35,028 bases of DNA from Spirogloea muscicola (Eukaryota > Streptophyta > Zygnematophyceae > Spirogloeales > Spirogloeaceae): contig WELB01000088.1 in assembly GCA_009602725.1 (NCBI GenBank), positions 541,982 to 577,009 of the forward strand. Reading direction: 5' to 3'. Positions within the stretch are counted from its first letter, which is position 1. The number at the start of each line of letters is the position of its first letter. Below are positions 1-16,275 of the stretch, piece after piece. The notes under the pieces are model-generated. The model saw only the letters and a program-made list of their open reading frames with translations. It was not told the DNA's origin and made no database searches. The translations under genes were made by a program, and so were the position numbers.

Positions 1-60
1 CCGCGCCGCCGCCGCCGTCGCCGCCGTCGCCGCCGCCGCCGCCGCCGCCGCAGCCGCAGA
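1..60 (+). repeat. GCC/GCN trinucleotide repeat in the 5' leader of eIF2-beta
   Basis: Nearly pure CCG/GCC triplets run up to the ATG at 62. They probably form the transcribed leader or core promoter of the downstream gene. The window edge cuts the region, so its full length is unknown. Confidence 0.6.
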
Positions 61-61
61 T

Positions 62-2553
62 ATGGAGATCGATCTAGCTCCCGCGGAGGCACTCAAGGAG
101 GAGCTCAAGGAGGAGACGTCGACCTCGGTTGGTTCTGCCGTCCTTTTTGCGCTTGCCCCCGCCGCTGACAGCAGCTTGGCTGGCTCCCGACGTTCTGACG
201 AAGGGCCCGACGCGGCGCGCCCGCAGATCGGCGCGTTCGACCCGAGCAAGAAGAAGAAGAAGAAGAAGGTCCGCATGGCGGATGACGAGGAGCAGCCCGA
301 CGTTACCAAGGTGGCCGAGAACCTCGAGGCCGTCTCATGTATGCACAGCGAGAGCTGCCCCCGCGCGCGACGCCGCTGCCGCTGCAGGCTTGGCATCGAG
401 CGGCCTGCATCTCCACCTATTGTTTCTGAAGAGGCTCTGCCGAGCTCCTTGCCTTTGCTCTTTGCTCATCATGTATGGGTTTCAGGGCCAGCTTTGCTGC
501 CACAGCACGCACAGGAGTGCTCTGTCAGGGGAGGTGGTTGTCAGGGAAGGTGGTTGTCTTACGATTGTCTTGCTGACGACCACGCGATGGTGGCACAGTG
601 TCTGAGCCTCCGAGTGACGCCCTCCTGGGCCTGGGCTTGAAGAAGAAGAAGAAGAAGAAGCCGGTGAGCTCTGCTAGCAGTGCCAGGACGCTTCAGCTGT
701 GGCTTGCTATCAGCTCTTTGTCGGCCTCGAAGCAACATGCTGGTGCGACTGGTAACAGCTTCCGTCTCAGACAGTCCCAGTTGTCATGCAATCATCGCCT
801 TGGCACCCTTTCACGAGGAATGTCGAGTCGATTGTAGGCTGGTGATGGGGCAGATGAGGGAGTGGGAGACCAGGCAGAGGCAAATGGTGTAGAGGATGGC
901 ACTGCCGAGGCAGAAGAGGGCGCAGGCGAGGGCCTTGGCGACCTGTCTTTGCTGAAGAAGAAGAAGAAGAAGGTACCCCGAGATGCGGAGGAGTTGGATG
1001 CTGCAGTGGCAGCCCCTGAGGATGGCGCTATGGAAGAGGAGGATGACAAGGGTGAGCTATACCTTCGGAAGCCACTAAGCACTTTGTGCACTGCGTGTCT
1101 CAGCGCACCATGCATGACTGTAGCTGTTGCAGAGCTGTGTTTTGTGTCTGAGCACTTTATGAGTGCCTAATTAGATTGGAGCATGTTTGAGTGATGACTC
1201 AACAGGTCTTGATGACGAGGAGGATGAGGACTTTGAGGAAGGTGAGGGAATCGAGCTGACAGTTGGTCTACCATGGGAGGGTTCTGATAGGGACTACAAG
1301 TATGAGGAGGTGAGGGTTGCTCCATCTTCATGTCACAGGTTTACATGTAGATTTTGCAGACAAGAGCAGGCATTCCGTGTTTCTAGCTATAGCTGGCAGG
1401 ACAATCTGGACACGCATGCTGCAGGCTTGCCATGTGAATCACGTCCCCTTGTACTCCTGCCTGAGTAGCTGACATGTGACCCCATTGCTGACTTATGTCC
1501 ACCTCAATGAGTGCAGCTCCTCGATAGAGTCTTTGACATCTTGAGAGAAAATAATCCCGAGCTAGCGGGCGAGAAGCGCCGTACTATCATGAGGCCACCC
1601 CAGGTGCTGCGCGAAGGGACCAAGAAGACGGTTTTTGTCAATTTCATGGACCTCTGCAAAACGTAAGGCGTTCTGCTTGTGATGTGCTGGCAGATGTCCT
1701 TAGGCCCTTCTACTGGCACGCTGTCACACTTGTGGCTTCAAAGCAGGCTGCCTGACTTGCAGCTGTCTTGTCGTTCCATTATTACACCATCATTGAGCTT
1801 GCTGTAACACAAATTTGCGTGAACGTTTGCAGCATGCATCGGCAGCCCGAGCATGTCATGGCTTTCCTCCTTGCTGAGCTGGGTACAAATGGTTCCCTTG
1901 ATGGCCAACAACGACTTGTCGTGAAGGGTCGCTTTGCTCCAAAGAACTTTGAGGGAATTCTTCGGCGATATGTCAGTAAGTGTCTACTACCTCCTAGTAT
2001 GAACACTGGCTACATTTGCGAGGCAAAAGATATATTGTTGCTGCTTAATGATGCAGAAGCTCTGAGCAGGACACACACATCAGCATTTTTGGTTGGCGTT
2101 GTGGAGCTATCGGGCTATTTATTTAATGTGAACATTGATGCAGATGAATATGTCATGTGCAATGGCTGTAAGAGTCCTGACACAATCTTGTCCAAGGAGA
2201 ATCGATTGTTCTTCCTCCGCTGCGAGCAGGTCAGTGCATAATCATATACTTCAATGACGTTCAAGTCAGCTGGGTAGTTTAACAAATGCAGGGTCAATGT
2301 CACGAACGCGCCTTGGCTATAGATCCTGTATCTGCTTTGCTCACGCTACACGCCTGTACAAGCCTTGCAGAAGCCATAGGCTGGGCAAACGAGACCATAT
2401 AGTCAAGATGTTGGGATGAAGGCTTGGATGATCGGCAGTCACATGCTCACGAGTCTGTCGGCCATCTGTGGTGGTCAGTGTGGCAGTTCTCGGTCTGTGG
2501 CACCCATCAAGGCAGGTTTCGTGGCCAGGGTTGGGCGGCGTAAAGCTTCCTGA
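62..2553 (+). CDS. EIF2S2: Eukaryotic translation initiation factor 2 subunit beta (eIF2-beta)
   Basis: eIF2-beta is part of the eIF2 trimer that brings initiator Met-tRNA and GTP to the 40S ribosome. Predicted exons are 62-338, 599-663, 838-1051, 1206-1309, 1517-1662, 1833-1975, 2144-2229 and 2479-2553. All junctions are GT..AG and in phase, giving 369 aa. Three lysine blocks (about residues 62-69, 106-112 and 153-159) are the K-boxes known to bind eIF5 and eIF2B-epsilon; each sits in its own exon (1, 2 and 3). An acidic stretch follows ([13 protein letters not shown]), then the conserved core ([18 protein letters not shown], then [19 protein letters not shown]). The C-terminal C2-C2 zinc ribbon has Cys322, Cys325, Cys343 and Cys346, split across the last intron, and the protein ends in VGRRKAS. 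It is longer than plant forms (about 270 aa) because of the N-terminal half. The least certain part is exon 1, which could hide a small intron. Confidence 0.95.
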
Positions 2554-3728
2554 TTGGTTAATTGTAGCTGCCCTTTCCTACTTGGTATGTCATTCTGTCT
2601 GCTGCAACAATTGAGCTCAGAACTTGTTTACCTGGACTTAGAGCAGAAAGGGAGGGCTTTCTCTTTGCTCCAGCAGCTAGCGTGCTTGCCAACCTCTTTG
2701 GTCTGCTGCGGCAACCTCGACCAGAACTTTGCTGCGATTAGGGCATATCTGCCGGCATTTGTTTGTTTTGCTATCAACCTAGTCGTACATACATCATGTG
2801 AGCTCAAGCAGAGGCTTGGCCCTATGTGGCATGGCCGGATGGGTTTTCATCCACTTTTCAAAGCTAACAGAAGAAGTGACTGCCTGTGCCAGTAGCGTAG
2901 AGTACATGTATAATCTGCAGTGTTACAGAGCTGCATCCTGGACAATGATTTCAAGCCACCCCTTGTAGGAAGTTTTGCTTCCCTCAACTGAAGAGGGGAA
3001 ACTGAGTTTGCATCTGGAGACTTTGCTCACGGCAGCCTTACCATGCTTTGATACTTTGCCCAAGTGCTCCCAAATGGAACGTTCGCACAAGGGCTTCCTG
3101 GTATGCTGGTAACAATCAAGAGTGCTGATGTAGAAGAGGAAGATGCCTGACGATGCTGACCTGGCCGTGGTACTTGATGTGCACTGGCAGCCCAAGCTGG
3201 GTGGCCCTGGGTCAACTAATTCCTTCTGTCAGCTCTTTGTAGAGAGTATGTTGGTCCTGTCTGCTTGCAAGCACTGGTCGACAGCGTCCTGTGCCTCGTG
3301 GAGGTGTCCGTATTTGCCAGTTGCTGCTCTTATGGGTTTCCAATGTTTCAAAGCAAAATTGATGGGTAATTGTGGTGATTGTGCATTGCCTACTGTCTGG
3401 TACGATGTCTAATCGGGCAGGCCACAGCTTGGCTGCTTCTGCATTTTGAGCAGGCCGACACCCTGCCTTCTTTCAGGGGGTTACTCCCCCTGAATTCGTC
3501 GATTTTGGAGTACTGAGCGTCCATTTGCAGAAGTAATGTCATGCTTTGCATCCTTAAGCCATTTTCCCTTGTCTGCTCTTTGGGGCTTTGGGCTTATGGG
3601 TGGCCTCTTGTAGCCATCGCCTTACTGCAAGAAAGAGATCGTGTATTAGAAAGAAATGTAGGCCAAATGGCCAGGTACAAAGGCAAGCACATCTAAAAAT
3701 CTACATAACCTACAGCAGATTGACCCGC
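2554..3728. other. Intergenic stretch with no recognisable gene
   Basis: The open frames here are short, overlap on both strands and resemble no family I know. The first few hundred bases are probably the eIF2-beta 3' UTR. The stretch holds one strong hairpin at 3473-3493. Near 3588-3625 there is a degenerate match to the GGGCTGG..CAGCC module that is abundant at 16-28 kb. Confidence 0.5.
3473..3493. repeat. Perfect 8-bp inverted repeat
   Basis: TCAGGGGG and CCCCCTGA flank a 5-nt loop (TTACT). It could fold as RNA from either strand. Function is unknown. Confidence 0.6.
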
Positions 3729-3925
3729 TCAATAACCACGGGTCAAAACATAAAGGTCACTACTCGATGCATGAATACTAGATGCCAGGAACGGAGCCCT
3801 TCTGCCACCTACTAGAGCTCGCCCAGCTTTCTGGTGCAAGGCACTAGCCTGAGCACGCTGCAAACAGGCCGAAACTCGACGTCGCAAGAGCGACAGATAT
3901 GCAGCTGGCAAGCCCATCTCAGCCG
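3729..3925 (-). mobile_element. Element A/B ORF C-terminus, 5'-truncated retroelement remnant
   Basis: On the minus strand this reads a C-terminal segment containing SACLQRAQASALHQKAGRAL and ending SDLYVLTRGY plus stop. It matches the end of the 445-aa ORF at 22531-23868 (SLSLQRSQALALHQRAGRAL ... SDLFVLTRGY). No reverse transcriptase or upstream part is attached. Positions 3815-3925 recur unchanged at 19484-19594. Confidence 0.75.
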
Positions 3926-4309
3926 AAATCTTACTGCAAGAGCGGTTTCTTTCGTGAGTGGCATTTAAAGTCATGTCGGCTCGGGCGTCGACCGCCTGAG
4001 TGGGAGCGAAGTATCTTGACGGTGCGAAAGGAGGACCGCTCCGGCTTCTCCGCACGGCCCCGCCATTTGGCAAAGCCGCTGCCACGTGCAATGGAGGCGT
4101 AGCACCAAAGTGGCTGGGTTTTGGATAAGGCCCGGGGGCATACATTCGCGCACCGATTCAATCAGAGGCATCGGCCAAGAGTGGAGCACAAAGCTGGAGG
4201 GGTTTTGGGAGAGCCTTGGGCCGACGTGGCGGCCGGCCACAGTGCCCTGCGCGCGCACTGGCCTGCGAGAGATGCCGCGCATAGAAGAAGAAGGGGGTGG
4301 TGGAGAGAG

Positions 4310-4490
4310 ACATGGCGAGCGGCGGCGAGTGCGCACTGGAGGAGAAAGTGGAAGAGGAAGCAAAGAGAGACAGAGGGAGAGAGGGCGAGGGGGAGAGAGA
4401 GAGAGGTGGAAAGTGAGGGGAAGATGGGGGGAAACAGAGAGAGGGGCAGATGATGCAGAGAGTAAGAGAAAGAGAGGGAACGAGAAAGTA
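4310..4490 (+). repeat. GA-rich low-complexity DNA
   Basis: A purine-rich GAGAGA/GGAGA tract. It produces spurious open frames on both strands (Arg/Glu-rich on plus, Ser/Leu/Pro-rich on minus). No coding signal is seen. Confidence 0.8.
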
Positions 4491-4503
4491 AGCTCATCCC
4501 AAG

Positions 4504-4539
4504 AAGAAAGTGCTCGCCCATTGAGAATAGGGGCTGGAA
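4504..4539 (-). mobile_element. 36-bp truncated element B insertion
   Basis: On the minus strand this is the last 36 nt of element B, from TTCCAGCCCC to GCGAGCACTTTCTT. It is flanked by CCCAAG at 4498-4503 and 4540-4545, a 6-bp putative target-site duplication. The terminus is the same as in the longer copies at 24565-24646 and 27133-27764. Confidence 0.6.
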
Positions 4540-4759
4540 CCCAAGGGGGTGAAACTGTGAGAGTAGCTTCGAAACCCTGTGCATGCCTTTGGGCTGGCCA
4601 CTCCCAGCCACCAATTAATGTTCTTCTGATTAATGTGGCCGCGCTTCGAAGCTTCGAATGGAATGAATAAGGTCCGAAGGGGCCGGTGGGGAGTGAGAAA
4701 GAGCTTTTACCAATTTTCGACAATGGCTATGAGAGGCCAGCCCAAAGAAATGTACAAGG

Positions 4760-4820
4760 AGAGAGGGAGGGAGACGGGGAGAGGGAGAGGGGGAGGGAGA
4801 GAGAGAGAGAGAGAGAGANG
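4760..4820 (+). repeat. GA microsatellite with one unresolved base
   Basis: A (GA)n tract with an N at 4819, lying about 100 bp upstream of the psaN start codon. It may be part of the psaN promoter or leader. Confidence 0.8.
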
Positions 4821-4915
4821 CGAAAATCAGGCCTGTTGTAGCCAGTCAGCAGGCTACTAGCCCCACCAGCCGTGTTGCCCCACTTTCCTGCACCCCGCCC
4901 GCCGCAGCTGCAGCC

Positions 4916-5945
4916 ATGGCCACCACCTCAGTCTTCTTCGGGCAGGCCGTCGCTGCTCCCTCTGCCTTGGCCCTCAACAATCTCAAGGTAGGCGTGCAAT
5001 TTGATGTGTAAAATTCCTTCAAAACACAGCGTCGTGCTGCAATTCTGCTACCCACTTCTTAGCCTGCAGCCCGACGGAGAATCTCCTAGCTGGAAGCGGT
5101 CCGCATCACTAAAGCGCGGCGGCAGTGCTCTTACCCCCTGACTACGCATGATGATTATATGTGCCACTTCTTCTGAGTTGTCCAGACCAAGCTGGAGAGC
5201 AGCGCTGCGTCTGTGCCGGCGCTTGCCGTCCGGGCGTCTGCCGAGGAGCCATCTTCGCGGCGGCAGGTCCTGAGCCTGGCGGCTGGCGTGCTCGCTGCCG
5301 GAGCCCTGTTCGCCACCCCCGCCAAGGCCGGCCTCATTGAGGATCTACTGGCGACGAGCAAGGCTAACAAGGTCACGCACTAGCCCTCGGAGCAGGACGC
5401 AGGCCCTTGGCAAGTAGGTGCTTTCGCCAGCCTTCTCAGGCCGTGGAAGGAAGCAAGGCCTTTGTGGTCATATGCTCTTGGCGGTGTATCATTGCAGGAG
5501 TTGAACGATGCCAAGCGGCTGGCGACTGTTGGCGCCAACACGGCGCGTGCCTACACTGTGCAGCAGGGCACCTGCCAATTCCCTAACAACTTCACTGGTT
5601 GCGATGATCTGGCAAAGCGCCAGGTTCGCCCTCTGCTCCAGCATTACCAGACTCTGCATTTGGCTCCAGCGTTCTCAGGCAGCAGCTTTGAGATGCAAGT
5701 AAGAAGTGAGTCAGGGGGCTCCAAGGTTGTGTTCTCATATGCCTTGTGGTGCTTGAAATTCACGAATGCAGAATGTCAAGTTCATCACGGACGACTTGGA
5801 CCTGGAGTGTGTTGGTAAGGAGCCCGGCAAGTGTGCATCCAACAACCTATGGAACAAGAATCTGCCCGCGCCCAAGTTCAAGCAGGCTTCTGCCAACCGC
5901 AAATCCTCCCAGGGAAAGCCAACCACTGTTGCTCAGCCGTCGTAG
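4916..5945 (+). CDS. psaN: Photosystem I reaction centre subunit N, nuclear-encoded precursor
   Basis: PsaN is a small lumenal subunit of photosystem I near the plastocyanin docking side. Exons are 4916-4987, 5186-5371, 5498-5623 and 5772-5945, all phase 0, giving 185 aa. Residues 1 to about 45 look like a stromal transit peptide. Next come the twin arginines at 49-50, a hydrophobic Ala/Leu/Gly stretch, and a thylakoid processing site AKA|G at 70-73, so a Tat-route lumen signal is expected. The mature part begins GLIEDLLATSKANK. It carries the family's four cysteines (112, 121, 141, 149) in TCQFPNNFTGC and LECVGKEPGKC contexts. The last ~30 residues after the fourth Cys (Lys/Ser/Gln/Pro-rich) form a tail I do not associate with plant PsaN. 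The third intron donor region is ordinary; the second intron uses GTCACG. Confidence 0.93.
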
Positions 5946-5970
5946 GCCTGCACTTCATGCGCCTCAAGGC

Positions 5971-6010
5971 TTGATTGACACTGCACATGCTTGATTGACA
6001 CTGCACATGC
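5971..6010 (+). repeat. 20-bp tandem duplication
   Basis: Two exact copies of TTGATTGACACTGCACATGC lie head to tail, starting 26 bp after the psaN stop, in its 3' UTR. Confidence 0.95.
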
Positions 6011-6619
6011 AAGATATGTCCAAAACATTCGAGAAGTGCGACTTTTGTGAGTTTCTTAGGCTATCTCCAGCACTGTTGTGGGAGTGCACCCTGTACAATG
6101 TGAGTTGGTCAATGACAGGGCAGGTAGCACCTGCTTGGCACAACGGTGCTAAGAGCCAGTCCTTCCTTTTGCAGCTATCTCAGCTGCGCGTTGTGCTTGC
6201 TTTTTGGTAGGCTTTTGGCACTGGGTGATTGTCAGGGTGCCCCCTTGTGCTTGCAACGTAAGCTCTTTGCAATAACAATAAGGCCATAAAATCTGCTAGA
6301 ATTTGCTGCTCGAGCTTGACCAGGGGATGGGCTTCAGTACTGGCATCTAAGAAATGGGCATGCCTGAATAGGCCGTCGCAAAGAGGCCGTCGCAATGTAA
6401 AGGCTGCACATCTGTGGGCTAGTGTCTGACAACTGTGTCCAAGTAAGCAGCATAGGCAGATGAACATTAAAGTCAGCGTGCTTATGGCATGCACGACTAT
6501 ACAGCAGTATAGCTCCAGTAGGTAGTAGCTCTTGGATAGAATCCAGCCAAACCTGGCACTTGGGAGGGGGTTTGTGTGAATATGACAAAGCAGCACGCTT
6601 GATCGGTGGACTAATCTAT
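6011..6619. other. 3' UTRs between convergent psaN and SNX2 genes
   Basis: This is non-coding space between two gene 3' ends. No open frame here has family similarity or a plausible splice partner. I see no repeat other than the 20-bp duplication next to psaN. Confidence 0.5.
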
Positions 6620-9600
6620 TTACACAGCCTTGTCACTTGCTGAGTCCAACCCAGCAGCCTCCTTCGCTATGTCGCCCCATTCAGCAACACTCAGGTCTGC
6701 AAATGCAATCTGGCACAGGCATCCACCGAACAGAGTGAGGCTGATTAAAGAGTTGGTGATGCATGTTAAGTGCAGTAGAAGAGAACCATTGAATATGCAC
6801 CAGATATGAAGTTTCTTATCTACAAGGAGCACTAGCCAATCCCTGACACATGGTGTACCTGTGCCTGGATAAAGCCGTCAAGCATGCCATGGAAATCAGC
6901 ATGACGCTCCACTTCAAAGCGTTCAAATTCACCCCGATTTCGTTCCTGAATCATGGGGACACGTCATAAGAGAGCCTGAGCAAGCGATTGAAGTATCAAC
7001 AGTCCCGCTCACTCTGCGTGCTACTCAACTGCTGATACTCTTCCAGTGAGAGCAGTACATCCATCTAGCAGCACTAGCTAGAGCGAAACACCTGCAACAT
7101 GGGGTGTGCAACATGCACATAGCCAGCATACAATGATACGGTTGTATTCCAGTTGAGCAGCCTCGGACGCCTTCTCAGTCTGTTCCACCTCTCTGCCCAG
7201 CTCTGCAATGCGCCGTATTCGTGCCTTGTCTCCTCCAAAAACCTTGGACTGAGCAGCTTCGAGCTTCTCAAGCTTTGCTTTCTTCGAGGCAAGGTCTGAC
7301 GACAAAGTCTGCACTGTCAGCAAAGCCTGTCCTCGATCAGTGAATGCCGCATGAAGTCCCTGCATGAAGCCCAGGTACTCATGTAATTGGACCTGCAATA
7401 CAGAGTCCAAGCTGGTTATTGATGATGAGATATGATATATGATGGCCTCCTTATTTTCTCAGAAGCTCCCTGCATCATGAAGCGGGTACAGGGTGCTCCC
7501 TTTGAGCACATTGCAGAGTACATGATCATGCCATCTTATGCTTGCTCGAGAAAGCTACTCCTCCCCGCAAGGACATACCAGCTGCTGTACAATCTGGGCA
7601 GTTGCTTCTCTGGAGTGCCTGCTGATTTTGATGGCTGCATTGCCAGTCCTCTTGCAATCAGCAGCATGAATACGGTGGACGGAGGGCGTGGTTGACACAG
7701 TAGCCTCCTTGACTTCGAATTTGGAGAGCTTGAGCAAGGCCATCCCGAGGTGAGCCATGACTTCTCCAAGCTCCTGCTGTGACTTTGTAAAGGCTTCTGC
7801 TTGTTGAGAAGCCTCTCCAAGGCGAGCCTCCAAGTCGAGTAGCTTCTCCTTCTTTTTAATATATTCGTTATCCTCCTCTGCACTTGCCGGCTGCAGTAAG
7901 ACAATGTAAGTGAGATGCTAAACGAGAAATCCCAACTGTCAGAAGACAGCCGTTTCTGAATACTGTCAGGCCTCTGCTACAGCTATTAAGAGTCGTGTTG
8001 CAAATGGCAATCAATGAAGTCATATAAGCTGACCTACCTTGGACCCCACCCATTCATTTGTAACAGACTGTTTCAGCTCCTTGAAAAGGCGGACAAGGTC
8101 CCTACCACCCTTGGCAGGTTGAACAGCATCCCTTGGCTGAATAACAATTGATGACTCTCCAAAGAGCTGGGAAACGATGCAGGCTTGTATCAGACCACTT
8201 GCTTTATTACGAGTCTGAAAGCTTGCTCGCAAGTTGACCAGATGGACAAGGAAGGAAGCGCTGGCCCTGTCTAATGAGGCATCTGCTGGTGGACCTGCTA
8301 TTTGGTATATTTTGCTCAATGTCTAGTTGCAATGTCATCTGCTGCACACACAAGTTCCACAAATTTGCAGGAGCTCTAGCAATAAGTAGACAGTAGCCTT
8401 GACTTCAAGATGTACCATGAAGAAGGGAAGCCCATGGGAAGGTGTAGGGTACACAGTCATACCTGCCTGGGAAGGTTGGCAGCCCCGTCCAACATGCGAG
8501 ATGCCATATCAACATTCTGAGGCAGGGGCAACTTTTCCGGAGACTCAAGGAATATACGAAGCTCCTCCGCTTTTCGTAGAACAGGATGTGCAGCCAGTCG
8601 CCGCAAATACCTCTCAAGTGCCAATCGTCTCATTTCCACAAATTCTTTGCTCTGCATGACCTGCCAGAGAAGTAGGTGACAACAGCTGCGAGTCAGCTCA
8701 AGACTTGACTGAGATGAGGCTCTGGCCACGTCTCGTAAGATCCTACCAAGGCAGCAGTCAAGCAGCTCAAGTTGGTGCGTCATTCGAAGATAGCTCTGAC
8801 ATGAAGCTTGTTTGCATTTCACCTGGCTCTCCACAACACTCTTATCAGGCCTTGGAGGGATGAAGTAGCCCCGATAGCCTTCAGCAAGCCTGTCTGCCAG
8901 AGTAACGAAGTCCTTGAATCTTCTCCTTACCAATACCTCTTCACTGCAACATACAGATAGAAGTCTAAGTGACAAGCAAGAAGCAACCATTCTGCTGTAA
9001 TGCTGGCATGCTTCAGTGTTACCACTGATAATATAATCAGCTCTCCACGACTGTAGATCTATAGCAGGTACATCACAATAACTCCTCACCTTTTGGATTC
9101 TGAAATGTCTATTCTTGTCGTTACAAGATATGTGAAGTATGTGTTGCCGCCTGGAACAAGAGAGCTGTTGGGATCCACCACCTTCTGTGGGTCTGAGACT
9201 GTTATCATAAGTTTCTGCTTTGATTGAAATAGAGATAAAGCCCCAGTACGTTTGGGAGCTCCATTGGCTGCAACAGTAAGCAAAGCCAATGTAGCATCAG
9301 CATTGCTGGCTTGCAGCAGAGCATGCAGCCCCTCACATCGCAAAGACTGCTGTCCAAAAGCCCAGCACAACAACAGCATTATGTAAACCATGCACTTTGT
9401 CCTCCATTCACTGAAGTGTACAAGATGGCAACTCCACGTGCACGTTGCACTTGCAAGGTCCCCACTACTCGATGAGACAAGGAGACTCTTAGTGCAGTAC
9501 ACTGACTCCATCTCCCAACTTGAGCAAAAAGAGAAGGATGACTGAACGAGTAGCAAGCGTATGACGGGAGGATCCACAACCCAGCTGTTTTCTACACTTG

Positions 9601-10434
9601 GACAGCAAGCTTGACATCAATACCTCGAGCTTCACCAGAATATGGGGCAGATATTGCATCTGCATATGAGGGAGGGTCGACAAGATCGTCCTCAAAAGGC
9701 ACACTCACAAGTTCTGGCGGTGACCTGTAGACAAGCATAGGGCTCTGGATGACATCACTGAGCTGATCACTCTGGCTTGCATTTAGCGGCCTAGAACCTT
9801 CACATTGTTTGCCAATATCTGTTACCAGAGCAGGACAACCTGCTACTGATCACATCCAAGGCAATACTTGCGAGCAGAGGATAGGCACTCAAGGAAGCCA
9901 GGCCAAAGTCATGAGCATGTCAATTCAACAACACTGATGCTCAAGGCATGCACAAATCAAAGTCAAGCTTGCTGATGTTGTGCCTGGAGTCTGACAGCGG
10001 GTCACTTCCAGTCACCGAGCCGGTGCTCTTGCTAGTCATACTGCTCCGATATTCAGAAGCTGCAGGGCCTGCCAGACGCAGCACGCACACCAACTAGAGA
10101 TAAATGCGGCTGAAGTGCTATTTCAACTACAACGCGGTTTTCTCCTGTCAAGCATGGCTAAGTCAGTAAGTCCTGATACAGCATTCTGTAAAGTGCTGCA
10201 AGTTAAGATGATCCCTCCATCAAGTGCGAAGAAGCTCCCTAGCTTTCCTTAGCGTATCTGTCAAATATTTGCCGTCTTCCCTCTTGATCGGCAGAAAGCA
10301 ACAAGGCTAGCTGAGGTGGAGGCATGCGGAGCACGTCCTGGGGCAGCGCCGGCAACCTGACCTGTTGTTTGATCGAGAGCCAGGCTCTCCATTCCATCTT
10401 CAGCCTCAGCACCGCTATCATTTGGCCCCATCAT
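6620..10434 (-). CDS. SNX2: SNX2-like sorting nexin (PX-BAR)
   Basis: Sorting nexins of this class bind PI3P on endosomes through a PX domain and bend membrane through a BAR domain, with retromer. In transcript order the exons are 10434-10362, 10059-10006, 9818-9624, 9267-9090, 8943-8823, 8660-8463, 8166-8038, 7890-7579, 7392-7132, 6945-6859 and 6709-6620. All phases fit and give 565 aa, close to Arabidopsis SNX2a/b. The PX domain is about residues 129-250: ITVSDPQK, VPGGNTYFTYLVTTR, then VRRRFKDF (basic PI3P-binding face) and YRGYFIPPRPDKSVVESQV. The linker motifs LPLPQNVDMASRMLDGA and VQPAKGGRDLVRLFKELKQS are hallmarks of plant SNX2. The rest is helical, charged BAR sequence. Exons 1-2 (MMGPNDSGAEAEDG..., then the exon at 10059) are inferred from phase only. 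An alternative start is the ATG at 10039. Confidence 0.9.
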
Positions 10435-10729
10435 GTCGCCCAAACGGGCAAGCGCCTCCAACGGGCCGACTACGGCCGAGGCCTGGAACGCGTCGCGTGC
10501 TGCACACGTACGCAAGGCTGCCCTACGAGAACCCGGCCCGAGCGATCACGCTCACTTCGCCCTGGCACTTGCTCAAGTGGGCGCCCCTGCCGCCTCCGTT
10601 GCCACTGCCGCAGAAGGCTGCAGAATGCTTCAGGAGACAGGGTCAACTGTGGCTTCTGGTGAGTCGAGCTCCTGCGCTTGGCGGCTGCCGGCAAGCGGAT
10701 GGCACGACGCGCTGTCGCACGTCCAGACC

Positions 10730-10775
10730 AGGAGAAGGCGCGCCGTGTGCATGAAATGAAAGGGAGGTTAGGACA
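10730..10775 (-). mobile_element. Fragment of element A 3' tail
   Basis: Read on the minus strand, this matches the repeated tail segment with CCTCC, TTTCATTTCATG and GCGCGCCTTCTC. The same segment is seen at 23960, 25965, 26790 and 27905. Confidence 0.6.
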
Positions 10776-10975
10776 GCGGGAAGTAGGAAGGGCTCGGGAC
10801 CCACCAGGTCCGCAAGTGGCATTCGGCTGCCGTCACAAGCACCAACTTCCCGACGTCGGCTGCCCTTTGAGCGGTGCACCTTACAAGCCAACCTTGGGCT
10901 ACTGCTCTGCACGGCACTGCAGCGGCTGCGGTGTCCCACCCGACGGTGGGAGAGTGGGCCTGTATCTGTGCCCTG

Positions 10976-11046
10976 GTTTAGTTTGCCCTAGACTCTGCCT
11001 GAACAATGTATCGGCGTGAATTGGCCTCCATGTCATTTGATGGACC
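10976..11046 (+). mobile_element. Fragment of element A 3' tail
   Basis: Contains the tail core GACTCTGCCTGAACAATGTA followed by a TGAATTGGCCTCCATGTCAT-like segment. The same core occurs at about 16811 (-), 20547 (-), 23931 (+), 25921 (+) and 27876 (+). There is no coding part attached. Confidence 0.75.
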
Positions 11047-11497: not shown

Positions 11498-14400
11498 ATG
11501 GCCGTTGCAAGGAACTCGGCAGAGGAATCACTGGACTCTCCAGGCGATGAGGACTTTCGGTCAGCTAAGTCCTTCTACAGCGGGGGTTTTAGCACCCCGA
11601 GGGCTGAGAGAGATGCTAGCCTTTTGAAGGTGATGATGTCGTCCATAAGGTCAGCCACAGTTTCACCACTGCCTCAAGTTTGCCAAGATGATTGTGTTAC
11701 AAGGCCTTGTGTCTCTACAAATTCCTCAAGCACGTGGCTGCCTGAGGTAGAATAGTGTCAAGCACTTATAGTTGCAATGCACTACTAGTACGTGCCAGCA
11801 GGACATGTGATAGTGCGACCTTAATGCTCTTGTGTATGAGATAACAGGCATTAGTGGGCTGCTCTAGTGCTTCGACACGCAGGAGCTCTAGCAATTGGCT
11901 TCTGAGTGAATTAGCCCGTAGTAAAGAGGAAAATGAGTCAACTTAAGTATGCCAGTACATTACTGTCTTGTGTGTTTCATGTTGTCAGCTTTTCAATGTG
12001 CACTGGTGCAACAAGTGGCCTAGCTGCCATGTAATACAAGGTCAAGTCATCCGCTCTTTGTGCAACCATTGCTAATTGTGACTCTGCCTTCCATTGACAC
12101 CTAGAATGGTGCCGGAAGTCGCTGTAGAGACCCCTACTTCCGCTTCCAAAGAAGCTCCCACAGAAGCAGATGACGATGCTGTGTCCCTACTCCACAGGTG
12201 AGGTGCAAATAAATTAGCTGCAATCTGATTGCAATCTATTGAGCGAAGCTGCTGTGTTTCCTTGTCATCTCTAGGCCAGGCGCTGGTAGTCACTGTAGTT
12301 ATCCCTGAGAGGTCAATCTGTGCTCGTAAATTCGCCCTTTATTTTCCTGTTTTCTTCTCCACGGGGTCATGAAGCTGAAAACCTGATCATAATCATATCA
12401 TAATGCTTCATGTCCCTAGTAGCAAGTTGAGCGGGGAGCTTGACTATGATGATCTGGTCTTCTCGCCTGTCAGTTATCCAAGTCATCAGGTAGGCCCAAC
12501 TACTTCTGTGATCCTGTTCAGTAAGTCAAGCAAGCCCTGTGCACAGCTCTGAGTCATAATCTGCTGAGTGCAGGTCAATGTGACCAACCAGCAGAAGGAA
12601 AGGCAAACCTGCACCAAGTATGCCTTGAGCAGAGCAATCATTGTTTCATAGCGTGCATCAGAAGGTAAGGAATGAGCTATACTTTGTCATTGATTTCTGT
12701 AATTTCACTGTACTTTGTGTGGCAGACGCCCTTTTATCGCCGTTGCTTTGGATTCCTGCTGAAGCGACCACTCGTTGGGGTTATGATACTTGCAGCAATT
12801 ATAGTACTCTTAGTTGCTGGCCACAGTGCACAACATCTGCCAGCCTGCCACAATGTGTTACTCACAGGTAACAAGGTATATCCAAGTAGCTCACAGCGGC
12901 AATGAGATTGCTAGATGTATTCATATTATCTAGCTAAGCGTGGTCCTTCCCTGCAAATACTGACTGCCGTGAATAAATGTCTGGTGCAGTGCCCTCTGTG
13001 GCAGATATGTCTTTGAAAGAGAAACTTGGGCAGATGATCATTGCCAGTATGGTTGACCTGAATGACGGCGAGGACATAAGTAAATACTGTCTCGGAGCAG
13101 TGACAAGCCGGCCTGGCGAGCCACCCCGATTCGGAGCATCAGCAAAGGACTGGGCAGACATGACTTCACTGTACCAAGCCAGGGCTTTGAGTACAAGATT
13201 GAGGATTCCAATGATTTATGGTGTTGAGGCTAATCATGGACATGGCTCCGTTCACGGCGCAACAATCTTCCCCCACGCAATTGGGCTTGGAGCAACTGGC
13301 AACCATTCGCTACTTCAGCTTGTGGCCTTTGCAGGTCAGCGCCAGCCTCCTGGTTCACCAGCCAGAGAGTAGGTTTTTGTCACGACCTCTGAGCAATGCC
13401 AGCATCAGGTTGTGATGAAGAAGTCACAGAAGTCTGGTCTCTGATGAATGTACCACCGAGGTTCTGAACTTGCACTAGCACCATAGTGCAGTGCACATAT
13501 AAATGAGGTAAGCTAGTGCAGTTGCATGCATAAGGCTAGCAACAATTCAGATTGTCTACTTTCTGCATAGTCATGGCTAATGTCAATGTTTCTTGCACCT
13601 AGCAGTTGCTGAAGAGATGGCTGCCACAGGCATTCGTTGGAATTTTGGCCCTATGCTTTCCACTTGCCTGGATCCACGATGGGGAAGATGTTACGAGTGT
13701 TTTAGTGAAAGCAAGCACCTAGTATCAGCCCTAAGTACGCAGCTGACCGGATTCTCAGGGGATCCAACCAGCATAGAGATGTCAGAAACGAGAAGGTAAG
13801 TCTCTTAAGGCCTTCAATCAAGGCAGAACTTGGTTATAGACGAATCGGTGTATGTAAAGAGCTTCACTTACTAAGTATATCTTTGGTCCTCTGTGCAAAA
13901 TTCATTTGCTACTTTGTAAGCCAACACCATCAGCGTTCAATGGACTCGGCAGCTGGGATTGGGGTGCTCCTAGAAGCAGATGTTGGGGGTCAAGGACGTC
14001 TATCTCCCACTGACCAACTTCTAACCACGTCTCACAGGGAGTTGGTGGCAACCTGTGGAAAGTTCTTCTACGGAGCAGGGGGTACAGCAAATGCTTTTAC
14101 CAATGGAGACACAGAAGGCTCAGATGCATTCGTGCGATCTCTAGACTTCCTCTCGTTCTTTGATGCACGGGTGAGGTAAGATTTTGGTGAGGTAAGAAAT
14201 TGACGAGATGATCAGGGCAGTGCATGCAATCTTGCAAAATGGGGTCAATATGTCTAGTTGTTGGTGGCCCTTTATATATGATATCATAATGTTGTGGTAA
14301 TCTTAAGTACTCTCGGCACTTTGTATGTAATGCCGTACCGATTATGTCACAATCTGCTGGGTTAAGAGGAATGTGTGCGACATCCTTGCATACAAGAGCA

Positions 14401-16275
14401 GGACTACGAGGAGGGCAGTCTGTTTCTCAAGTAAGTGTATTGCAGTGCTTACTGAGCTCATTCCTGGTATGCAGGGGCATCAATTCATTCATGCTTAACA
14501 ATGGCAGCATCAACGGGTCATCTGTGCATGGCAACCCCTACTTCGCAGATATTTTGCGAAAGCAGTTGGGCTTTGAAGGGCCGATTGTATCTGCTCATGG
14601 GGGACTCAAGAGCATCCCAGGAGATTGGGCTACTCAGGTATGTTTACCCTTCTCCATGCTGTGTCTAATGCTCGCAAGTAGCAAATGCTCGCAAGTCGTC
14701 AACATATGACACAAAGAAAAAGCTGGTGGAGTGAATATCTCCTGGCTGCAAGTCGGAGGTGACACTACTTCAGTGCTCAGAGATAACAAAGTTCACCAAT
14801 GGGCTGCATCGACAAGACTTCCTGTATCACATGGACTAAATCTGATGCAGGTCCGCAAGGTAGTCAATGCTGGCATTGACATGATCCAGCCTGGACCTGG
14901 TCAGTACCTCCGCCTATTACAGACCCTGGAAACTGAGGTCAAGGAAGGCCGGATTAGTGAACTCCAAGTGGATGCTGCTGTGCAGCGAATCTTGAGCATG
15001 AAGACTGCCCTCGGTCTTTTCGAGAGTCCTTGCTCTCCTGGCCCATATGAACTGGCCTTGGACTCAGTAGGTTCTGCACAACATCGTCAAATTGCCAAAG
15101 AGTATTCCCTGCTCTTATCATGTCAAATGTGTGGACTCATCTGGCTAGCACAAAGTCATAAGCCTTGAATCTAGCGCGTACTTATAAAGTGGCATCTGTC
15201 TCTACCACTATTCCCCCTTTTGCTTATTGTTGTGTTGGTAGAGTAGAGGCCGCGCGCGACGTTTTAGATTATGTGAATGGAGCTTGTTTTCAGGCAGGTG
15301 TACTTAGCCATGTCAGGCAGTACAGAGCATTCACTAGTCCTGGATGCCAATAAAATCAGAGCGATGAGCACTATGCCTCATGGATGTGAACTTGTGGTCT
15401 GCACAGGTGACTAAGCATTCCTCTCTGTTACCTTGCAGAGCTGTTCGTCAATCCTTGGTACTTCTTAAGGATGGCGGCAATGGGAGGGACAAGCTCCTAC
15501 CTTTGGAAACACGGGGCAAAACCTACTACTTGACTGGAAGCCATGCAGACAACCTGGGATACCAATGTGGTGGCTGGACACTCTCTGTGCAGGGCAGCGG
15601 AGGTCCTATCACAATTGGTAAGGCATGATAAGAGCAGATGACATCATGAAGAAGCTTTGGGTCGCATCTGCGCTGATATAGCAGTGTTCTCATGCTCCCT
15701 TTACATCAAGGAGCACATCAAACTCGGGTGGGACTGATTGGATGTTTGTTCTCCATACCTCAGGGACCACGGTGCGCGAAGCATTTGAGACTATTCTGGG
15801 AAGCAGCGCAAAGCTCATCTATGAGTTGCAACCATCGAGCAACATTTCTGCAGACTACGGGGTAGTGGTCATTGGGGAGACACCCTATGCAGAGACTTCA
15901 GGAGATGAAGCAAACAAACCCAAAAGCGAATGCCTGCAGCTGAACAGCGCTGCTCGAACTACCATCAGCACAGTGTGCAGCTCTATGCCATGCATCCTTG
16001 TGTTGATTACTGGCAGGCCGCTAATTGTTGAAGATCTCCTAGAACTCGTGCACACCCTTGTAGTTGCATGGCTGCCCGGAACAGAGGGCCTCGGTGTGGC
16101 CGAAATGCTACTCCAAGAAGATCTGGACTTCACTGGCATGCTCCCAGTCACGTGGCCCAAGTCTGTTTCGCAGCTACCATACACAAACTCTCGAGCTGGA
16201 GCCCCTCTGTTCCCGTTTGGCTATGGGCTGACCAAGGCGGGGAGCCGCCTTCAAAGACCCGAAGGGCACCATTGA
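11498..16275 (+). CDS. Membrane-anchored GH3-family (beta-glucan exohydrolase-like) protein with altered active site
   Basis: Exons: 11498-11649, 12105-12197, 12420-12489, 12574-12642 (least sure), 12726-12867, 12990-13334, 13606-13795, 14038-14175, 14475-14637, 14851-15101, 15439-15617 and 15764-16275, about 767 aa. A cytosolic, acidic/Ser-rich N-terminus precedes one membrane helix (about residues 140-165, VGVMILAAIIVLLVAG), so it looks like a type II membrane protein. The GH3 fold follows plant/barley exohydrolases: GVEANHGHGSVHGATIFPHA, WNFGPMLSTCLDPRWGRCYE, GIDMIQPGPGQY, SHADNLGYQCGGWT, VVIGETPYAETSGDE, ITGRPLIVEDLL and AWLPGTEGLGVAEML. The nucleophile motif usually reads VISDWEGI; here it is IVSAHGGL, with Ala near residue 440 in place of Asp. 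The KHFVGDGGT motif reads KFFYGAGGT. The acid/base-region motif is kept. Hydrolysis is therefore doubtful; a binding or regulatory role is possible. Confidence 0.88.

Follow-up and report, generated by a model that had tools for sequence, protein, structure and literature searches.

Gene Structure and Domain Organization

The window analyzed here is a stretch of 35,028 nucleotides from the genome of Spirogloea muscicola (contig C88, positions 541982-577009), in an assembly of 153 Mb and 471 contigs. Splicing of the window DNA yields a GH3-like gene of 11 coding exons (11498-16275, forward strand; Table 1), which encodes a 745-residue protein and in which every junction is AG/GT. Two Pfam families, both of them GH3 domains, are found in this protein: Glyco_hydro_3 (PF00933, residues 161-481, 153.2 bits for a cut-off of 27) and Glyco_hydro_3_C (PF01915, residues 523-732, 89.6 bits for a cut-off of 31). 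No GH9 catalytic domain was detected among its Pfam matches.

The original prediction, made from the DNA letters, had described a membrane-anchored GH3 pseudoenzyme with twelve open exons and good splice sites. The open frames and splice sites stand, while the count has to be lowered to 11 coding exons. The segment in which the prediction placed the missing nucleophile (14475-14637) is exactly exon 8, with AG/GT at its edges, and the exons at 12990 and 14038 are located where it had put them. The only candidate noticed for a twelfth coding exon, the stretch at 12574-12663 in intron 3, was rejected on account of its in-frame stop; it is possibly a cassette (poison) exon. Identity among the genomic copies reaches 96-98% over 12574-12618, the remainder of intron 3 being also high (87-97%).

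Table 1. Coding exons of the GH3-like gene and a conserved intronic stretch (window positions; ExoI residues in 1EX1 numbering).
Feature	Position	Strand	Content
Exon 1	11498..11649	+	Start codon; acidic/Ser-rich N-terminal tail (putatively cytosolic); donor GT; kept in 3 copies; dN/dS 0.12-0.22
Exon 2	12105..12197	+	Tail; acidic dileucine-type motif DAVSLL, residues 75-80 (putative signal)
Exon 3	12420..12489	+	Tail; YxxPhi-type motif YDDL, residues 91-94
Conserved stretch, intron 3	12574..12663	+	Splice-like ends; outside the coding model; reading on from exon 3 meets an in-frame TAG at 12649
Exon 4	12726..12867	+	Basic RRCFGFLLKR, then predicted transmembrane segment LVGVMILAAIIVLLVAGHS
Exon 5	12990..13334	+	GH3 barrel start; GVEANHG; Asp95 to Glu232 at 13226-13228
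Exon 6	13603..13795	+	Barrel; DPRWGR kept; Arg158 = Arg296 at 13686-13688
Exon 7	14038..14175	+	Barrel; GKFFYGAG; Lys206 kept, His207 to Phe341, Asp211 to Ala345
Exon 8, loop	14475..14637	+	NNGSINGSS; Ser252 to Asn386, Tyr253 to Asn387; sequons at 387 and 391
Exon 8, nucleophile segment	14475..14637	+	SAHGG; Asp285 to Ala418, Trp286 to His419, Arg291 to Ser424
Exon 9	14851..15101	+	GH3 barrel end; PF00933 runs to residue 481
Exon 10	15439..15617	+	GH3 C domain start (PF01915); Trp430 kept = Trp562; Trp434 to Val566
Exon 11	15764..16275	+	GH3 C domain; acid/base Glu491 kept = Glu619 at 15892-15894; stop codon

The Active Site Compared with Barley ExoI

The closest solved relative of the protein is the barley exohydrolase ExoI (PDB 1EX1; phmmer, E ~1e-122, residues 157-734, ~40% identity), with which it has in common the two GH3 domains over their full length; ExoI clamp mutants are also among the top rows of the search. 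In ExoI, Asp285 is the nucleophile and Glu491 the acid/base residue, Trp286 and Trp434 form the +1 clamp, and Asp95, Arg158, Lys206 and His207 are among the glucose contacts (PMC6527550). In the spliced frame, exon 8 contains GPIVSAHGGLKS, which phmmer aligns without internal gap to ExoI GFVISDWEGIDR. Asp285 thereby corresponds to Ala418 (codon GCT, 14593-14595), as had been predicted, and Trp286 to His419 (codon CAT, 14596-14598).

According to this residue map, which is an alignment at ~40% identity, 7 of the 11 active-site residues listed differ from ExoI in all three genomic copies of the gene: His207, Asp211, Tyr253, Asp285, Trp286 and Trp434 are replaced, and Asp95 is Glu. Position 418 is thus Ala in 3/3 copies and both residues of the aromatic clamp are lost (His419 and Val566). 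The replacement of Trp434 was absent from the original list, whose other readings (KFF, GAG, GVEANHG and NNGSING) were all recovered in the spliced protein. Arg158, Lys206, Trp430 and the acid/base Glu491 (Glu619) are retained in 3/3 copies, in agreement with the claim that WGR and the acid/base region, which reads GETPYAETSGD, had been kept.

Retaining GH3 enzymes require an Asp nucleophile. Because this Asp, the clamp and most of the glucose contacts are gone, hydrolysis by the GH3-like protein is very unlikely and, judging from its sequence, it is probably not a retaining glycosidase. The ExoI variants W286A and W286H are described as folded but inactive, and the next paragraph of the same source places both among mutants with decreased kcat, so that some W286H activity may remain (PMC9508125). 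An alternative exon restoring SDW, which the original prediction had named as an observation that would overturn it, was sought at the DNA level and rejected, no SD[W/Y/F] motif being present in a contiguous reading of the three forward frames between 11401 and 16400. The former Tyr253 loop carries NGS sequons at 387 and 391 in 3/3 copies, and glycosylation of Asn387 and Asn391 could block the pocket.

Genomic Copies and Selection

Two further copies of the gene are present in the genome, on C302 and C247 (83-91% DNA identity by piece). Both have 745-residue frames in which every exon and splice site is kept, without stop or frameshift, and the three proteins are identical at all 13 pocket and neighboring positions checked. 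A single sequencing error is therefore very unlikely, and an assembly error unlikely, as the source of the substitutions that the three copies share. The three proteins differ from one another at 77 positions, all of them outside the 11 of the pocket, but the pocket neighborhood as a whole does not vary significantly less than the remainder (6/87 vs 51/491 variable positions, P = 0.21).

Pairwise dN/dS among the three copies is 0.18-0.20 overall by NG86 (bootstrap 0.12-0.26) and 0.23-0.24 by YN00. Selection is thus purifying overall (0.18-0.24 by two methods), and the neutral evolution against which the original prediction asked to be checked was not seen. By region (NG86), values are 0.15-0.19 for the GH3 parts, 0.09-0.20 for the tail and 0.61-0.84 for the short transmembrane part. 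Exon 4 stands at 0.75-0.86, with few changes, and exon 8 at 0.73, 0.29 and 0.35, values derived from 2-4 synonymous and 2-5 nonsynonymous changes; these are too few, so that constraint is demonstrated for the whole gene and not for exon 8. Nine of the ten introns (46-86% identity) show lower identity than any exon (88-98%), and intron 3 (89-93%) falls in the exon range.

The left flank of the gene (1-10976) is collinear with C302 over 1-3626, 3980-4405 and 4826-10976, and the first 3.6 kb of the window also match C31; no match of C247 to this flank was found among the 38 of 3054 candidates that were scored. This flank contains an eIF-2B/IF5-domain frame (1768-2241, forward strand) and a PX-domain frame (8457-9089, reverse strand). 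A stretch of ~300 bases at 3631-3928, with >30 copies at 96-100% identity among the matches listed from across the genome, is probably a young mobile repeat. Genes present in threes include the window gene, another GH3 gene, which we take from its motif to be NagZ-like, GH9 genes and Dicer (three Dicer_dimer loci found). A genome triplication and three DCL2/3/4 copies have been reported for this zygnematophyte (PMC7994812).

An Intact Paralogue and the Origin of the Gene

The same genome contains an intact ExoI-like GH3 gene, found by a DNA search in two copies only, on C81 (locus L011, 3335-6209, reverse strand) and C236 (locus L012, reverse strand). None of the 11 active-site residues is replaced in this gene, which has SDW and the two Trp of the clamp, and the dN/dS of the pair (0.16 by NG86, 0.14 by YN00) is lower than that of the window copies. 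A signal-peptide-like start is seen in one of the two copies, the start of the other not having been found.

Three intron positions, with their phases, are common to the window gene (10 introns) and the C81 gene (8 introns). In a tree of 26 rows, four of them other GH3 proteins, the window clade joins C81/C236 at 99/93, and barley ExoI stands next to both at 98/96, among bacterial ExoI-type proteins; 7 of the 23 inner branches of this tree are open, and the tree program issued a long-branch warning. The stem branch of the window clade is long compared with that of the intact paralogue (1.22 vs 0.57). The common introns and the 99/93 grouping with an intact paralogue indicate that the pocket loss is derived. 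Most likely, an intact, intron-bearing ancestor would have been duplicated, after which one line changed fast, lost the pocket and was later conserved.

Clamp enzymes were described as absent from the unicellular green algae sampled, Chlamydomonas being named, and the Trp clamp as having emerged, among plants, with land plants (PMC9508125). The full clamp of the C81/C236 gene in a streptophyte alga implies that the clamp is older than land plants in the plant line.

Bacterial Relatives and the Extent of Pocket Loss

Thirty bacterial rows were available for comparison, comprising two distant Treponema proteins and 28 loci cut out of a second search with matches in 114 of 296 genomes; L020 and L040 are one gene, and some rows are near-copies of each other. 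The two Treponema proteins came from a collection of genome contigs, and a collection of viral contigs gave no match; the collections searched hold no eukaryotes and thus have no bearing on algal orthologues. Asp occupies the nucleophile column in 27/30 rows. Two of the others (L041 and L044) are gaps, their extracted frames being cut at stops, and the row with Ala (L048) is an upstream neighbor of the matched gene, which itself has SDW. Positions 1-1125 of L048 encode the terminal part of a bacterial GH3-like protein in which SAW stands for SDW, adjoining this GH3 gene; judged from its sequence, SAW is possibly an independent loss of the nucleophile. The Asp95 to Glu change is mild, Glu being found at this column in 12/30 rows.

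The intact rows of the ExoI clade number 19 (barley ExoI, C81, C236 and 16 bacterial rows, L022-L037), and Asp285 is present in 19/19. With one gap allowed, 89 positions are invariant in these rows, and the window protein keeps 75 of them. The losses are concentrated in the pocket (5/8 invariants lost vs 9/81 elsewhere, Fisher P = 0.002; P = 0.013 within the barrel alone), with P values that assume independent positions, and the 19 rows include several near-copies. When each intact row was left out in turn, 0/19 lost a pocket invariant. Retention is highest in the C domain (27/28 non-pocket invariants).

Predicted Membrane Anchor and N-Terminal Tail

A hydrophilic tail occupies the first ~110 residues. 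It is followed by RRCFGFLLKR and then, from residue 121, by the strongest hydrophobic segment of the protein (hydropathy maximum 2.53; the C domain has a lower peak, 1.79 at residue 646), in support of the membrane anchor that had been proposed, which remains a predicted one. Under the positive-inside rule, a basic flank predicts the orientation of a membrane protein. The basic stretch before the hydrophobic segment therefore points to a type II topology, in which the GH3 part would be in the lumen or outside the cell.

DAVSLL and YDDL fit the acidic-dileucine and YXXPhi patterns of sorting signals. Acidic dileucine-type motifs occur in 9.5% of shuffled tails and YxxPhi in 65%, which makes YDDL weak as a signal alone; both motifs together, which with the hydrophobic segment would give a KORRIGAN-like layout, occur in 6%. 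Their reading as sorting signals is suggestive only. Rice GH9A (KORRIGAN) proteins are described as having N-terminal tails of 71-73 residues with LL and YXXPhi, followed by one transmembrane domain and a glycosidase domain (PMC3537678). The window protein would resemble them in this layout, its own signals being sequence matches only, and differs by its longer tail, by a GH3 instead of a GH9 domain and by its lost catalytic residues.

A Putative Pseudoenzyme and its Possible Roles

Taken together, these data make it likely that the gene encodes a GH3 protein of the plant ExoI branch that is maintained by selection though catalytically dead, and that is anchored in a membrane by its N-terminus. 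Its assignment as a pseudoenzyme, the central claim of the original prediction, can be held with high confidence: three copies of a protein under overall purifying selection lack the nucleophile and the greater part of the -1/+1 pocket, an intact paralogue exists in the same genome, and ExoI W286H is described as folded but inactive (PMC9508125). One point against it is that the acid/base Glu, Arg158 and Lys206 are all retained, although a pocket wholly freed from constraint would have no need of them.

Conservation of the fold and of the C domain, together with the anchor and the tail, suggests that a ligand or a partner is bound. The most likely job of the GH3-like protein would be to hold onto or sense the end of a glucan, or a partner protein, on the cell surface or on wall-trafficking membranes without cutting, while its putatively cytosolic tail (DAVSLL, YDDL) would steer its traffic as in KORRIGAN. 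A glucan-binding or sensing role, also proposed originally, is a reasonable but tentative suggestion. Bolder, and unlikely on present evidence, is a new class of membrane receptor derived from a GH3 exoglucanase by removal of Asp, His, Trp and Tyr, with NGS-I-NGS sequons in the Tyr253 loop, a trafficking tail and an anchor, which, kept in triplicate, would serve as a wall-glucan sensor or glucan-cargo receptor.

Somewhat less likely still, the protein might regulate the intact paralogue or act as its partner, in a complex with this secreted ExoI-like enzyme or in competition for its substrate. In its favor, both genes are present in the genome and retention is highest in the C domain; however, ExoI-type enzymes are not known to form dimers, and the intact gene has, in one of its two copies, a signal-peptide-like start instead of an anchor. 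It is very unlikely that the protein is still an enzyme, acting on a different glycoside by means of Glu619 and either water or another residue. The equivalents of the acid/base Glu, Arg158 and Lys206, kept in 3/3 copies, would fit such altered catalysis, but the nucleophile, Trp286, His207, Asp211, Tyr253 and Trp434 are all replaced, the Asp is found in every intact row of the ExoI clade, and the change of Trp286 to His alone is reported to inactivate ExoI (PMC9508125). Furthermore, SAHGGLKS offers no Asp or Glu in 2/3 copies, the C247 copy reading SAHGGLES (Lys to Glu). That the pocket was lost in a gene on its way out is scarcely credible and was rejected, since the long stem branch and the higher dN/dS of exons 8 and 4, on few changes, are set against low overall, GH3 and tail values and against three copies with intact frames and splice sites.

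The preferred reading, a pseudoenzyme retained for binding, has counterparts in other glycosidase families. Klotho is a membrane-anchored, GH1-like pseudo-glycosidase that lacks catalytic residues and acts as a co-receptor; it differs from the window protein in being an animal protein of type I topology and GH1 fold. Klotho-type pseudo-glycosidases became receptors. In plants, no chitinolytic activity was detected for CTL proteins, which are reported to bind glucan chains, and CTL1 is reported to matter for wall assembly, such pseudo-glycosidases having become wall-assembly factors (PMC10960159). CTL1 is thus, like the window protein, a plant glycosidase-like protein without detected activity, but it belongs to GH19 and not GH3, and the part of PMC10960159 drawn on here mentions no membrane anchor for it. 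Compared with ExoI itself, the window protein has lost the nucleophile, the clamp and other pocket residues and adds the predicted anchor and the ~110-residue tail. Keyword searches of the literature, judged on the abstract openings of the best matches, returned no GH3 pseudoenzyme. Since this GH3 case occurs in three natural copies, in a genome that also contains an intact sister gene, and since a reference structure has been solved, it offers a clean setting for studying the conversion of a digestive pocket into a module for binding or sensing.

Elsewhere in the genome, the chlorophyll a/b-binding family has 68 matches at exon level. For one LHCII-type frame, the first PDB match is 9vfj, followed by many plant-type LHCII chains, moss and seed-plant chains, as we take them to be, ranking above most Chlamydomonas ones.
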